57,789 nucleotides of DNA from an uncultured Pelagibacteraceae bacterium (GTDB lineage: Bacteria; Pseudomonadota; Alphaproteobacteria; Pelagibacterales; Pelagibacteraceae). Both the position numbers and the translations under genes were made by a program. Of this stretch, positions 5 through 35,561 are shown in pieces. The notes under the pieces were generated by a model, which was given only the letters and a program-made list of their open reading frames with translations, ran no database searches and was not told where the DNA came from. The DNA is taken from contig CACBRY010000003.1 in NCBI GenBank assembly GCA_902541825.1, positions 1 to 57,789 of the forward strand. The letters run 5' to 3'. How positions within the stretch are numbered: the first letter of the stretch is position 1; the number at the start of each line of letters is the position of its first letter.

Positions 5-739
5 ACTTCTGATAAAAATTTAGTAATCCAATACTTTAAAGATGATGCTACAGCATTTAATAATGAAAAAAGAACTACTATTGAGGGTAAAGGAGTTTTA
101 AATAATAGAATTTCTGAACATATACTTACAAATTTGTCTCAAATAGGTATTGAAAATCATTTAGTTAAACGACTAAACATGAGAGAACAATTAATTAAAT
201 TTGTAGAAATAATTCCAATTGAATTTGTTATCCGGAATGTTGCGACAGGATCTTTGACTAAAAGACTTGGAATAGAAGACGGAACTGTACTAAAAGAACC
301 TTTAATTGAATATTGTTTAAAAGATGACAAACTTGGTGATCCTTTAATTTCAGAGGATCATATTTATGCATTTGATTGGGCAAATAAAAAAGAAATTGAA
401 AAGATTAAAAAAAATATTTTTAGAATTAATGATTTTATGATTGGAATGTTTAGAGGGGTGGGAATAAAATTAATTGATTTTAAATTAGAATTTGGACGAA
501 CTAAAATTGATGGAAGAAAAGAAATAATTTTGGCTGATGAAATAAGCCCTGACACTTGTAGATTGTGGGACTCTGCAACTGACAAAAAACTTGATAAAGA
601 CAGATTTAGAAAAGATTTAGGGGATTTATTACCTGCGTATACCGAAGTTGCCAAAAGACTTGGAATTCTACATGAGCAATCGAACGTTTCTGCAGTAAAT
701 ATAACTAAACTATCTTCAATTAAAAAGAAGCGAAAATGA
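5..739 (+). CDS. purC: SAICAR synthetase (partial, 5' end outside window)
   Basis: Phosphoribosylaminoimidazole-succinocarboxamide synthase joins aspartate to CAIR in de novo purine synthesis (cytoplasmic, ATP-dependent). The C-terminal 244 residues are visible. Family signatures are clear: [13 protein letters not shown] and [14 protein letters not shown], the latter carrying the nucleotide-binding acidic residues. Homology to PurC continues upstream of the TTG at 134 ([16 protein letters not shown] is encoded from about 20), so that TTG is not the start. An in-frame TAA at 2-4 sits where PurC normally continues; an edge artefact is the likeliest reason. The stop overlaps the purS ATG by 4 bp, so the genes are probably translationally coupled. 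Identification is secure. Confidence 0.93.
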
Positions 740-978
740 AAGTTTCTGCAGTAATAACTTTAAAAAAGGATGTTTTAGATCCACAAGGCAAAGTAATTCA
801 TGAAACATTGGATGGTATGGGTTTTAATTCTGTGAATGAAGTTAGACAAGGAAAATATTTTGAAATTGATGTTAAAGAAAATGATCCAAAAAAAGCTAAA
901 GATCTAGTGGAAGACATGTGTAAAAAACTTTTAGCGAATCTTGTTATTGAAAACTACAAAATTATTGAGACACAATAA
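736..978 (+). CDS. purS: FGAM synthase subunit PurS
   Basis: Small structural subunit of the three-part phosphoribosylformylglycinamidine synthase (PurS-PurQ-PurL). It bridges the glutaminase PurQ and the synthetase PurL and helps channel ammonia. The 80-residue length fits the family, and the sequence shows the usual pattern: a first strand after [19 protein letters not shown], then a central [16 protein letters not shown]. The start overlaps the purC stop (ATGA) and purQ follows after 3 bp. Its presence agrees with the short PurL encoded further along, which needs separate PurS and PurQ. Confidence 0.95.
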
Positions 979-981
979 TTA

Positions 982-1665
982 ATGAAATCATCCGTTATAA
1001 CCTTCCCTGGTTCAAATTGTGATCGAGATATGGACGTGGCTCTCACAAAATTTGGATTCAAAAATAAAATGGTTTGGCATAATGATCAAGAATTGCCCAA
1101 AAGTGATTTAATTGTTTTGCCTGGTGGTTTTTCTTACGGTGATTATTTGCGTTGTGGCAGTATGGCCTCAAAATCAAAAATTATGCATTCAGTAATAAAT
1201 TTTGCAAAATCAGGTGGATTGGTAATGGGAATTTGTAATGGTTTTCAAATTTTAGTTGAGTCTGGATTAGTACCAGGAGTATTATTAAGAAACAAATATC
1301 TTCAGTTTATTTGTAAAAATGTCCACGTAAAAGTAGATAATAAAGAAAACACCTTTTTCAAAAATCTTGATAAAAAAATTTTAGAATTTCACATAGCTCA
1401 TAATGAGGGTAATTATTTTTGCACCAATGATCAACTCAAAGAGATTGAAGATAATAATCAAATAGCAATTTATTATTGTGATCAAAATGGCAATACAGAT
1501 GATCAAATAAATCCTAATGGTTCAATAAAAAATATTGCAGGTATTTTTAACAAAGAAAAAAACGTTTTAGGTATGATGCCTCATCCTGAGAGAATGATAG
1601 ATGAAAGTTTATCTGGGGAAGATGGATCAATCTTTTTTAAAAATCTTATAAATAATATTAAATGA
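982..1665 (+). CDS. purQ: FGAM synthase subunit PurQ (glutaminase)
   Basis: Class I glutamine amidotransferase subunit that supplies ammonia to PurL in the fourth step of purine synthesis. The nucleophile is Cys85 in VMGICNGFQIL, and the His-Glu pair lies in MMPHPERM near the C-terminus (about residues 200-206). The oxyanion region LPGGFSYGDYLRCG is intact. Length (227 aa) is normal. The stop codon overlaps the next ATG by 4 bp, but the next gene is not purL: an exported lyase-like gene stands between purQ and purL. Confidence 0.95.
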   Translation: MKSSVITFPGSNCDRDMDVALTKFGFKNKMVWHNDQELPKSDLIVLPGGFSYGDYLRCGSMASKSKIMHSVINFAKSGGLVMGICNGFQILVESGLVPGVLLRNKYLQFICKNVHVKVDNKENTFFKNLDKKILEFHIAHNEGNYFCTNDQLKEIEDNNQIAIYYCDQNGNTDDQINPNGSIKNIAGIFNKEKNVLGMMPHPERMIDESLSGEDGSIFFKNLINNIK

Positions 1666-2555
1666 AAATTCGAACTAAACTATTCTATATATTGTTAGCC
1701 TTTTTTATGATGACCAGTGTTTCTTTTGCGTGTGTTACCTCAAAAGAATGCAGTCCCAAAAAAGAAAAAGGTTACTACAATTATCCTAATAAATTGAAAA
1801 GAGGTATTGCAGGAAATATGCACATTGCAAACTTTATGCCAGAGGAACTACATTTAGCAAATTACTCTATCGTGAAAGATCCAACAGGCACATCGCCTAT
1901 TGAGATAATTGAAGATTTTAGTCCGATAAAAGGTCATTGCGGAACAGCAGGTCATTTCTGGAAACAAAATAAGGTTAAAGTAGGAACTGGAACAACAGAT
2001 TGTAATAGTAATAGATTAAGACTCGAACTTGCTATGAATAAAGATTTAAGGACAGGTAAGAAAGCTAAAGAAATTTGGATAGGTTATTATTTGTATGTGC
2101 CTGACACGTCTGATAATTTTAAAGATAAAAAATTACAACCTTACATAACACAATTTTATGGCACTAATAAAAAAGGTGGTCAAAATAGAGGTGGTTATGC
2201 ACCTCAATTTTCTGCTTCTATATACAACGGTAAACTTTCTATTGAAGGTGTTCCTGTAATTGATGAAAACAATTTAAAGGGCAAGTGGCACAAAGTTGAG
2301 TTTAATGTTAGATACTCAAAAAAAGATGATGGTTTTTTTAAAGTCTATATTAATGGTGAATTAAAAGTAAATAGAACAGGATTTCAAACATCAAAACATA
2401 GTCATGTTGAAATAAAATATGGTTCATATTCACATCCTGAATACGGTGGTGCCAATTATCCTGAAGGATATCAATTCCCATCCCACACAATATACTTTGC
2501 TGGGTTCAGTGTAGAGAAAGATAGAGCAAAATTAAAAGTTAACAATATTGAATGA
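1662..2555 (+). CDS. Exported polysaccharide-lyase-like (heparin lyase I-fold) protein
   Basis: A predicted secreted protein of 297 aa. Residues 1-23 form a Sec-type signal (basic MKIRTK, hydrophobic core, SVSFA before Cys24); the motif before Cys24 is a poor lipobox, so signal peptidase I cleavage is more likely than lipidation. The rest resembles the beta-jelly-roll family that includes heparin lyase I (Pfam Polysacc_lyase): an arginine-rich RLRLELAM strand, then [11 protein letters not shown], a [13 protein letters not shown] strand, a YINGE turn, and a final [12 protein letters not shown] strand. Four cysteines (24, 30 and two near 93-115) suggest disulfides. Lyase activity is not established; it could simply bind glycans. 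It overlaps purQ and purL by 4 bp each (ATGA), so it is translated as part of the purine operon. The family call comes from pattern recognition only. Confidence 0.6.
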
Positions 2556-4744
2556 TGGAAGTTAACGAACAAATAGCTATAGATCACGGTTTAAAAAAAG
2601 AGGAATATAAAAAAATTTGTGATTTATTAAAAAGAGTTCCTAATCTAACTGAACTAGGAATTTTCTCTGCGATGTGGAATGAACATTGCTCATATAAATC
2701 TTCAAGAATTCATTTAAAAAAATTACACACTAAAGGAAAAAAAGTAATTCAAGGACCAGGGGAAAATGCTGGGGTTATTGATATTGAGGATGGAGATGCA
2801 ATAGTTTTTAAAATCGAGAGTCATAATCACCCATCATTTATCGAGCCTTATCAGGGAGCCGCTACAGGAGTAGGTGGAATTATGCGAGATGTTTTTACAA
2901 TGGGTGCAAGACCCATTGCTAACTTAAATTCAATACATTTTGGTTCAACTCAAAATAAAAAAACAAAAAATTTATTAAGAGGTGTTGTTCATGGAATTGG
3001 TGGTTATGGAAACTGTATGGGAGTACCTACCATAGCAGGTCAAACATCTTTTGATAGATCATATAATGGAAATATCTTAGTGAATGCTATGACTTTAGGA
3101 TTGGTTAAAAAAGATAAGATATTTTACTCTAAAGCAGCTGGTTTAAATAAACCAGTTATATATGTTGGATCAAAAACCGGTAGAGATGGAATTCACGGAG
3201 CAAGTATGGCTTCTGCAAGTTTCGATGAAAAGATTGAAGAAAAAAAACCAACTGTGCAAGTTGGAGATCCTTTTACTGAAAAACTTTTATTGGAGGCGTG
3301 CTTAGAATTAATGTCAGGAGACTCAATTATTGCAATTCAAGATATGGGAGCCGCAGGACTAACCTCTTCAAGTATTGAAATGGCATCAAAAGGAAATTTA
3401 GGTATCGAAATTAACTTAAACAAAGTTCCATGTAGGGAAACCAAAATGACCCCTTACGAAATTATGTTATCAGAAAGCCAAGAACGAATGCTTATAGTTC
3501 TTGAAAGTGGCAAAGAGGAAATAGCTAAAAAAATATTTGATAAATGGAATTTAGATTTCGCTGTAATTGGAAAAACAACCAACACAAAGAATATTGAATT
3601 ATTTTTTGATAACAAACAAGTAGCTAATATTCCAGTGAATACATTGGTTGAAAATTCTCCGATGTATGATCGAAAATGGAAAAAATCGAAATTACCAAAA
3701 AAAAATAGAATAAATAAAACAATATTTAAAAGTCTAAAAATCAAAGATACCTTAAAAAAAATCTTATCCAGTCCAAACGTTTGTAGCAAAGAATGGATTT
3801 GGCAACAATATGATCACACCGTAATGGGTGATACTATACAAAAACCGGGAGGAGACTCAGGTGTAGTAAGAGTTCATAAAACGGATAAAGCTATTGCTGC
3901 TACAGTTGACTCATCTGCAACTTATTGTTGGGCACATCCACTAACAGGTGGAAAGCAAGTCGTTTGTGAAACTTGGAGAAATTTAATCTCAGTAGGTGCT
4001 AAACCTATAGCGGTTACGAATTGTTTAAATTTTGGAAGCCCAGAGAAAGAGGAAAATATGGGTGAGTTTGTCGAATGTGTTCAAGGTATCAGTGAAGCAT
4101 GTAAGTATTTAGATTATCCTGTTGTCTCAGGCAATGTATCTTTTTACAACGAAACTAAAGACATTGGAATTAAACCAACTCCTACGATAGGAGGTGTGGG
4201 TTTAATTAAAGATTACAAAAAAATGATTACAATGGATTTTAAGGAAATCGACAACATCGTATTAGTGATTGGCAAAACAGAGGGGCATATAGATCAAAGT
4301 TTATTATCAAGAATAATATTAAATGAAAATAATGGACCACCACCTGAGGTAAATTTATTTAATGAAAAAAATAATGGTCTAACTTTACTAAATTTAATTG
4401 AGAAAAATTTCATTAAAAGTGCCCACGATGTATCTCTTGGTGGGATAATTACAGCATTAAGCAAAATGTGTATAAAAGGAAATAAAGGTATACAAATCAA
4501 AAAGCCAAAATTTTTGATTAATGAAATTGAATACTTTTTTTCTGAAGATCAAGGAAGATATTTAATTGAAATAAATCCAAAAGATTTAAAAGAAGTTTCA
4601 AAGATTTTAGAAAAAAATTCGGTACATTATGATGAAATAGGTAAAATCATCGATAAAGAGATGATAATTGATCAAAAGACGAAACTAACAATTGACGAAT
4701 TAAAATCATATAATACTAATTGGTTTAAAGGCTACATGGTTTGA
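2552..4744 (+). CDS. purL: FGAM synthase subunit PurL
   Basis: Synthetase subunit of phosphoribosylformylglycinamidine synthase; uses ATP and PurQ-derived ammonia to convert FGAR to FGAM. At 730 aa it is the short form that works with PurS and PurQ. Diagnostic motifs: [11 protein letters not shown] near residue 43, [19 protein letters not shown] near 90, and [10 protein letters not shown] and [10 protein letters not shown] in the second half of the AIRS-like tandem repeat. Two adjacent ATGs occur (2552 and 2555); the first overlaps the preceding stop. It ends the purine block, and bolA begins 2 bp after the stop. Confidence 0.95.
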
Positions 4745-34160: not shown

Positions 34161-35561
34161 TTATGGAATCTGAACACCATCTTTAATGATATTATAAACC
34201 ATTTTTTTCCAATTATAATTATATTTTTTTCTGTTAACGTGAATTGTATTTAAAACTACAATTCTTGAGTTTTCTACGTCAATCAAAATTTGCTGACCTC
34301 CGTGTCCTCCCATGCCGAGAATTTTCCTATCTTTCATTCCTTTAATATCTAAATGAAATTGACCACCATAACTATATGTGGCTTCCTCAACACGAAATAA
34401 ACTTCTCTTTGGATTAGTTAATTTCTTTTCAATTCTATTATTGTAAATAGTTTTTAAATATTTTCCAACACATGAATCATTTTGCCAATCATCCATAATT
34501 GTCTTAGCTACTCGTAAATAATCATATCTTGTTGCATAAAACATACTTTGAGCGTCACCATTTTCAGCAAATTTATTTGGAACCTTAAAAAAATATACAC
34601 TATTTTTTACTTTAGCTTTAACTTGAAAAATATTATTTAAAAGTTTTTGCCAATTATCTCCAGATTTAAACATTGCATAATTCAATATTAAGTGCGTATT
34701 AATAACGTTGTAATTATATTTGCGATCTGATTTTTTTTTATTTTTAAAATAATTACCCATGTAAAAAGCAATAGTATTAGTGTCCGCCTCACCTTCCACT
34801 GTTTGATATTCTACATCTCCCATTTCTAAAATAACGCTGTCATAAACATACTTTTGATCGCCAGCATTCATATTTAACAAATCTATTAGTTTATCATCTT
34901 GGTAAATTGTATCTTTTACTAAAGGCCAATCACTAATTCTCTGATTTACATCCTTAATGTATCCTGCACAAATTGCGTGACCTAATACGTACGATGCCAA
35001 ACTTTTTCCCATTGAATTTGATCTTAATTTTGTATCATTATTTACAAATTCACCAAATCGATCAATCGGTGATAATTCATCTATTATAATTTGACCATCT
35101 TGAAAATAAAGGTAACTAAGGATTGCTTGTTTCATAAATTGTTTTTTTATAAATTCATTTTCTATTTTATTGAATTTAAATTCATAAGGATCTTTGGAAG
35201 CTTGAATTAAATATTTCTTCCATTGAATAGTGCTACCATCACCTGTTTCATGACTAAATAAATTTTTGTAATTGTAATATACTAATGTATCTCTGTTAGG
35301 ATTTTTGTTAAAAGGTACGCTCCACCTTCCTTTGTAAGCGTTAACTTTCAAATTATTTTCTTTATCTTCCCATAATGGATTTCCATTCTCATCGTAACAT
35401 AGAGCATTTCTCGTTTTTTTATTATCGCATCCAACTCTATAGCTATAACCATTATTTTTTAACCAAAGATTAAAACTCAACATGCTGTTTGAGTAATCTG
35501 ATGCAAAAACAATATTGTTTTGAAAAAAGAGTAATATTAAAATCAATGTAAATTTTTTCAT
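34161..35561 (-). CDS. Serine hydrolase, beta-lactamase/NylB-like, exported
   Basis: A 466-aa exported protein: signal peptide at residues 1-20 (MKKFTLILI...VFA). The beta-lactamase-like (class C/penicillin-binding) fold is supported by SNSMGKSLASYVLG (SxxK, serine and lysine), a possible YNYNVINTH (Y-x-N region), and GMGGHGGQQILID (HxG in place of KTG). This set resembles 6-aminohexanoate-dimer hydrolase and esterase-type members. Lactamase activity should not be inferred. The gene is bounded by perfect 31-bp repeats: its stop codon touches one copy and its start codon lies in the other, as if inserted as a unit between the carbonic-anhydrase-like and TesA-like genes. Confidence 0.72.
   Translation of the reverse strand: MKKFTLILILLFFQNNIVFASDYSNSMLSFNLWLKNNGYSYRVGCDNKKTRNALCYDENGNPLWEDKENNLKVNAYKGRWSVPFNKNPNRDTLVYYNYKNLFSHETGDGSTIQWKKYLIQASKDPYEFKFNKIENEFIKKQFMKQAILSYLYFQDGQIIIDELSPIDRFGEFVNNDTKLRSNSMGKSLASYVLGHAICAGYIKDVNQRISDWPLVKDTIYQDDKLIDLLNMNAGDQKYVYDSVILEMGDVEYQTVEGEADTNTIAFYMGNYFKNKKKSDRKYNYNVINTHLILNYAMFKSGDNWQKLLNNIFQVKAKVKNSVYFFKVPNKFAENGDAQSMFYATRYDYLRVAKTIMDDWQNDSCVGKYLKTIYNNRIEKKLTNPKRSLFRVEEATYSYGGQFHLDIKGMKDRKILGMGGHGGQQILIDVENSRIVVLNTIHVNRKKYNYNWKKMVYNIIKDGVQIP

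Follow-up and report, generated by a model that had tools for sequence, protein, structure and literature searches.

In the 57,789-nt stretch of SAR11 (Pelagibacteraceae) DNA analyzed here, which we call the window, a gene for a putatively exported protein of the polysaccharide lyase-like family PF14099 lies between purQ and purL, and we consider it probable that this is a mobile and selected accessory gene of lyase fold that uses the purine operon as an expression platform. Under this explanation, a small minority of Pelagibacter would carry the lyase cassette parked seamlessly between the two genes, where its expression would come from the purine operon, with stop-start coupling as the probable means, and where its purQ-like 3' tail would preserve the native context of the purL start. 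Homologous recombination through the purQ end and the purL start would spread the cassette, and probably also remove it, and the cassette's subfamily would be drawn from a pool common to pelagimyophages. The most likely target of the product would be an anionic glycan that contains uronate and lies at the cell surface or beyond it, and the gene's connection to purine synthesis would be one of expression only.

The insert within the purine operon

The gene order in the operon is purC (truncated at the contig edge), purS, purQ, the lyase gene, purL, a BolA-like gene, and a glutaredoxin gene, with purC and the last two genes named by eye. The features at the two junctions are as follows:

736-978 (+), purS (Pfam PurS, E 3.5e-29)
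982-1665 (+), purQ (Pfam GATase_5, E 1.5e-46)
1651-1665 (+), 3' end of purQ, AATAATATTAAATGA, a near-repeat of the 3' end of the lyase gene
1662-1665 (+), ATGA, the purQ stop overlapping the lyase start (from the sequence)
1662-2555 (+), gene for the predicted exported PF14099 polysaccharide lyase-like protein, 297 aa, ATG start (open reading frame and Pfam)
1662-1730 (+), codons 1-23 of the lyase gene, predicted signal peptide (leader) of Sec type, cleavage site placed by eye
2541-2555 (+), 3' end of the lyase gene, AACAATATTGAATGA, resembling the purQ tail (encoded ends ...NNIK in purQ and ...NNIE here)
2552-2557 (+), ATGATG, in which the TGA stop of the lyase gene (2553-2555) shares bases with the purL start, placed at 2552 or, from homology, at 2555
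2555-4744 (+), purL (Pfam AIRS, AIRS_C, and FGAR-AT_linker; start by homology to relatives)

An earlier, sequence-only reading of this DNA had described a signal-peptide gene at this place that overlaps both neighbors by ATGA. The gene and its leader, which is Sec-type by eye, are as described, and a hydrophobic N-terminal leader can be seen by eye in 7 of 7 aligned orthologues, which points to an exported product. The ATGA overlap holds on the purQ side. On the purL side, the list of open reading frames starts purL at 2552, which would give ATGA, but an ATG equivalent to 2555 is found in 30 of 30 purL loci compared and an ATG at 2552 only in the window and one other of these (L083), and also in L098, and TGATG is therefore the more probable form of this junction. 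With either purL start, the lyase stop overlaps it, so that the lyase gene has a stop-start overlap at both ends. With no intergenic space, the lyase must be read from the purine operon, to which it is probably translationally coupled, judging from the overlap alone.

The end of the cassette resembles the end of the gene that precedes it. Lyase copies of the N and A types (the types are groups in the lyase tree described below) end in VNNI(K/E), like the NNIK tail of purQ, and the likeness extends to the DNA level; B-type copies differ. A purQ-like tail would leave purL with its native start context and could allow clean loss of the cassette. The window's genome, which is 73.6% complete, yielded no second copy of the lyase at E ≤ 1.

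Distribution, recombination, and selection

The insert is rare. Some PF14099 relative is found at E ≤ 1e-5 in 43 of 201 genomes of the genus, and a close orthologue of the lyase in only three: the window's own genome, G132 (78%), and G042 (65%). In a search of 397 family genomes, 13 genomes of another genus have a close orthologue at 71-74%. Comparison of purQ-purL junctions, which the sequence-only reading had recommended, was possible where both genes lie on one contig, as they do, among the matches listed, in 145 of the 201 genomes (purL was detected in 158 of the 201, purQ in 152). The gap is -1 to 8 bp in 141 of these and 883-898 bp in three, the same three lyase carriers, with the window included by design; leaving out the window itself, the insert is present in 2 of 144 resolvable junctions. 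A gap of 552 bp in G032 reads as adjacent genes since the purL match there is partial and sets in at residue 185. We rejected the idea that purQ-purL is a general hot spot for foreign genes, as the lyase is the only gene inserted in the 145 resolvable junctions. On one contig (G186:C11), fragments of purL and purQ occur twice in opposite orientation, probably an assembly artefact.

A wider scan of 84,980 GTDB species genomes with two peptide patterns, by which carriers of only the A type would be missed, found 27 orthologue loci, all in SAR11. Eight are purQ-purL loci, two of which (L100 and L123) we judged to be G132 and G042, respectively. An assembly artefact at this junction, or a gene confined to a single assembly with broken junctions, is rejected because eight other SAR11 genomes have a homologue at the same junction. 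One locus (L120, 3156-4867) holds two different lyases in tandem, in the arrangement purQ-ATGA-A-ATGA-B-TAATG-purL. The nearest purL relatives of the window, at 96-98% protein identity, are without the insert. The other 19 loci (L102-L119 and L124, one of them PRT-SC02) have the order aacS-lyase-hdac, in which the acetoacetyl-CoA synthetase gene (aacS) and the histone deacetylase-like gene were named by eye. These carriers of the same lyase subfamily belong to another genus, and aacS is a second housekeeping landing place for the subfamily.

This distribution bears on two readings raised from the sequence alone. In one, purine status and the envelope are functionally tied, and the lyase is co-regulated with PurSQL for a reason. 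The stop-start overlaps on both sides speak for such a tie; however, the lyase is absent from 142 of 145 resolvable junctions and members of the same subfamily have no purine genes beside them at aacS or on a phage contig, so the tie is unsupported and we regard it as highly improbable. In the other, the operon serves as an expression platform for an accessory gene, and this is supported by an insert that is present or absent between close relatives, crosses species by recombination, and belongs to a subfamily found elsewhere.

Homologous recombination has spread the cassette, the last part of purQ and the first part of purL serving as its arms. Mosaic flanks are seen on the purL side in the window, and on both sides in L122 and L123 by windowed identity. 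The window's tract is as follows:

2555-2686 (+), 5' tract of purL, recombinant and derived from another lineage, with its breakpoint at a place between 2665 and 2686

Nucleotides 1-116 of the window's purL show 7 differences from G132 and 25 from G197, whereas nucleotides 117-1200 show 188 differences from G132 and 52 from G197. A max-chi scan puts the breakpoint between nucleotides 111 and 132, with 0 of 5000 permutations reaching the observed value, and the first ~111-132 bp of the gene come from another lineage. No breakpoint could be placed on the purQ side of the window. Two genomes (G084 and G126) share flanks similar to the window's yet are without the lyase, so the flanks travel with and without it. 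The closest carrier, L098, has 23 differences from the window in purL nucleotides 1-116 and hence little of its tract; tract and lyase may therefore have reached the window in separate events. Between L122 and L123, purQ differs at 71 positions in nucleotides 1-420, at 14 in nucleotides 421-681, and at none in the last 81 nt; the lyase genes are 93-100% identical per 60-bp window; and purL differs at 2 positions in nucleotides 1-120 and at 177 in nucleotides 121-1200. In the lyase tree, the purQ-purL copies form the N, A, and B groups, and well-supported branches force at least two purQ-purL lineages, to which A may add a third.

Patchy presence could also mark a neutral passenger on its way out of these genomes. 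We think this very unlikely, as dN/dS is 0.11-0.36 in 14 pairs, with aacS-site and phage copies among them, so that the lyase is under purifying selection, and internal stops are absent from the close orthologues in 3 rows of the genus set and 14 rows of the family set, the window being in both.

Some of these properties are familiar from the core genome of SAR11. According to the available text of Wilhelm et al. (2007; PMC2217521), gene indels in core regions may be polymorphisms, and the variable ones are under purifying selection. The lyase insert is like those indels in that a single gene under purifying selection is present or absent within a conserved order. It is unlike the cases in that text in its cross-species recombination, its phage copy, and its position inside an overlapping operon; none of the conserved rearrangements reported there involved genes acquired by horizontal transfer. 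The insert is thus a SAR11 core-region indel polymorphism to which cross-species transfer and a phage relative are added. A similar mechanism for larger islands appears to be described in a 2014 paper (PMC4033161) that deals with the replacement islands of aquatic prokaryotes and homologous recombination in them. In the titles and opening lines of abstracts on SAR11 polysaccharide lyases, purL, pelagiphage genes, and recombination, we found no report of the insert.

Fold and candidate active site of the lyase

The lyase matches PF14099 at E 5.7e-16 and 59.5 bits, against a curated gathering threshold of 29.9; all 23 rows of an alignment that includes it (A3) match the family as well. Its likeness to the family consists in this score above the cut-off; the SAR11 subfamily differs in a QFY motif and in an N-terminal region of its own, residues 24-104 lying outside the match. 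A profile of the family finds one glucuronan lyase among solved structures (2ZZJ, from Trichoderma reesei, which we take to be PL20) at E 2.9e-8; phmmer against solved structures gave it only E 0.9, so the profile was needed. An AlphaFold model built from 23 aligned sequences is of middling confidence (mean pLDDT 66.4, pTM 0.69), enough for the core, and its closest solved fold is again 2ZZJ (Foldseek E 4.2e-10; Z 16.8, rmsd 3.6 Å, 204 residues aligned), though at 16% identity and in a fungal enzyme. Next come heparin lyase I structures (3INA and 3IMN, presumably PL13) at Z 15.2 and 14.9 (rmsd 3.6 and 199 aligned at Z 15.2), followed by PL7 alginate lyases. Heparin lyase I shares the jelly roll but is larger (about 370 aa), has a lower Z, and is absent from the phmmer and profile matches; we assume PF14099 to include it.

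Model and profile together confirm a predicted polysaccharide lyase jelly roll that is nearer to PL20 than to heparin lyase I. The sequence-only reading had called the protein a jelly roll of heparin lyase I type: the jelly roll is borne out by Pfam, profile, and predicted fold, and heparin lyase I stands for the class of fold, with the glucuronan lyase being the nearer relative. The heparin lyase I match is unspecific since its fold is common to several lyase families, and the 2ZZJ matches are to be read as kinship, not as membership in a CAZy family. Many lectin-like jelly rolls rank below the lyases among solved structures, and we took them as generic. The best 50 matches in a fold search of viral models include proteins of chlorella viruses and giant viruses, one of which bears the name alginate lyase, and phage jelly-roll or LamG proteins; no pelagiphage is named among them. 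Against PHROGs, NCBIfam, and the anti-phage defence proteins of PADLOC-DB 2.0.0, the lyase matched no family at E ≤ 0.01.

Two alignments, one of 23 rows and a wider one of 17, show residues R120, E122, Q164, G254, and Y256 to be invariant; C93 and C114, a possible disulphide, are invariant in the 23-row alignment and not in the other. The candidate active-site features are as follows:

2019-2027 (+), R120-E122 (RxE), candidate active-site groove, R120 and E122 invariant in both alignments
2151-2159 (+), Q164-Y166 (QFY), with an invariant Q and, in 9 of 12 distant paralogues, His at the third position
2427-2429 (+), Y256 (GxY), candidate catalytic tyrosine, invariant

The catalytic histidine of heparin lyase I has a tyrosine partner, and H151 is named in the title of the 3INA entry. 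Of the catalytic His and Tyr that the sequence-only reading had pointed to, the tyrosine has an invariant candidate in Y256, as judged from alignments. The QFY motif, at a place where 9 of 12 distant paralogues have QFH or QIH, favors a reading in which the protein keeps its lyase fold to hold a glycan and has lost catalysis, as does the report that Cip1, a protein of similar fold, showed no convincing lyase activity in the available text of its description (PMC3764139). We think a binding protein of this kind unlikely, because R120, E122, Q164, and Y256 are invariant in both alignments and the PL20 glucuronan lyase is likewise without a histidine there (IAQFI in the profile alignment). The Q and G-x-Y positions align with 2ZZJ in the profile alignment. 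The available text of the same paper describes a glutamine of a Chlorella-virus alginate lyase that contacts bound glucuronate and is kept in glucuronan lyase (PMC3764139), and Q164 would be the counterpart of this residue. The product may have lyase activity. A separate idea, that a cysteine following the leader in N-type copies marks a lipoprotein, was rejected since, by eye, the preceding residues do not match a lipobox; the other lyase types have E or D at this position, also by eye.

Phage relatives and possible roles

One relative of the lyase lies on a 4,059-bp IMG/VR contig (L125), where it is 89-90% identical at the amino acid level to B-type host copies and 62% to the window's. The other genes of this contig include T4-like baseplate genes whose nearest relative is Pelagibacter phage HTVC008M, at 57%; the phage link is this one pelagimyophage contig. 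No named phage genome in INPHARED matched either the lyase or the slot enzyme described next, and no A-type lyase was confirmed in viral contigs. We compared 79 further phage loci with a close gp25 (best 80 of 147, L125's contig included). The lyase body is found in none of the 79; 10 tblastn matches all end by query residue 32 and cover only the leader. A search with protein bodies found that 37 of the 79 loci encode an exported SxxK-motif protein, on the minus strand in every one of the 37:

L139:3518-4732 (-), pelagimyophage slot SxxK enzyme (body search), with 36 others among loci L137-L215

The distinct full-length slot enzymes with coordinates lie ~1.1-2.6 kb upstream of gp25, as the lyase does in L125, and the predicted fold of one (pLDDT 80.8) is of the serine beta-lactamase/esterase type.

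Leaders and bodies of these proteins may have separate histories. In the slot enzymes, which were found by their bodies and so are free of the bias of a leader query, a strict leader motif, GV(V/T)(F/Y)A, occurs in 24 of 37 and a looser one in 33 of 37. The leader of an aacS-type lyase (L104) matches phage leaders at up to 18 of 23 residues (median 9), compared with 7 for the best of 32 background leaders; the window's leader reaches 11 of 23 (median 6), compared with a background best of 8. The phage lyase and the host copy L123 are 66% identical in DNA over nucleotides 1-66 and 92% over nucleotides 133-882, which suggests a swap of leader and body in the phage gene. The contrast is no proof of a swap since host leaders also diverge fast: the window's lyase is 78% identical to that of L098 in the first 60 bp and 93-98% after. 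The lyase subfamily belongs to a gene pool that hosts and pelagimyophages have in common, as shown for the one phage contig.

One role, which we put forward tentatively, is that of a phage-type surface modifier. The lyase would trim a surface glycan serving as phage receptor; pelagimyophages would carry either the lyase or the beta-lactamase-fold enzyme to exclude rivals or free their virions; and a host that captured the lyase would keep it expressed from the purine operon, as a defence while the pressure from phages shifts. The high identity of the phage lyase to B-type host copies, the frequency of the slot enzyme, its recurrent leader motif, the L104 leader, and the leader-body contrast all argue for this role. 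Against it, the lyase matched no anti-phage model, the phage carrier is a single contig, the link of the window's own leader to phage leaders is weak, the L104 median is modest, and fast divergence of host leaders could account for the contrast. We know of no receptor described for pelagimyophages. According to one study of pelagimyophage auxiliary genes (PMC7029224), members of the HTVC008M group have genes that are thought to change the envelope of the host and to prevent coinfection; the word lyase occurs 0 times in its main text, and its available text describes no exported PF14099 lyase.

A second role, which we put forward about as tentatively, is scavenging: the secreted enzyme would cut dissolved uronate polysaccharide for uptake, and the purine operon would merely give it steady expression. 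Distant PF14099 paralogues in SAR11 favor this. One cluster (L236) combines PF14099 lyases with exported SxxK hydrolases, a sulfatase, DUF1501 and DUF1800 proteins, a GT2 and a PMT_2 protein, and a GH10-like protein that scored slightly below cut-off. PF14099 genes and SxxK hydrolases, with 43 and 45 carriers, respectively, co-occur in 18 of 201 genomes (hypergeometric 9e-4, in a test that ignores genome completeness and kinship) and lie within 3 kb of each other in 7. By eye, however, the window's copy is solitary and uptake or uronate genes adjoin neither host site, and scavenging leaves carriage by a phage unexplained. Two further clusters (L237 and L238) contain, by eye, PF14099 lyases, exported SxxK hydrolases, and a sulfatase. 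All three clusters look like a sulfated-glycan locus, which is unexpected in SAR11, and guilt by association from these distant paralogues hints that the lyase may target a glycan that is acidic and perhaps sulfated. The 45 carriers of SxxK hydrolases counted above are the genomes with host relatives of the phage slot enzyme; five host copies (L216-L220) are 74-84% identical to it, all five adjoining groEL by eye. The window itself encodes, at 34161-35561 (-), an exported 466-aa SxxK protein 39% identical to the slot enzyme, for which no Pfam family scored above cut-off.

Scavenging and phage-receptor change are both possible, as are both directions of transfer between phage and host. In a broader scenario, which we offer as a speculation and think rather unlikely, SAR11 and T4-like phages would share a pool of exported glycan-active enzymes with swapped leaders and bodies, hosts would capture receptor-altering enzymes as promoterless cassettes in essential overlapping operons such as purQ-purL, and recombination through the flanks would spread and remove them, amounting to a polymorphic, constitutive surface defence maintained without a genomic island.

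Our preferred reading, a mobile accessory gene expressed from the purine operon, bears on how SAR11 genomes change. These genomes are small and tightly ordered, and adaptive gene exchange outside their hypervariable islands is an open question. The lyase insert provides a worked case in which a single-gene cassette crosses species into the middle of a core overlapping operon and has a relative on a SAR11-phage contig. It makes the lyase a concrete candidate for a surface-altering or glycan-scavenging gene, and it indicates that even purQ-purL can be a landing place for a mobile gene.
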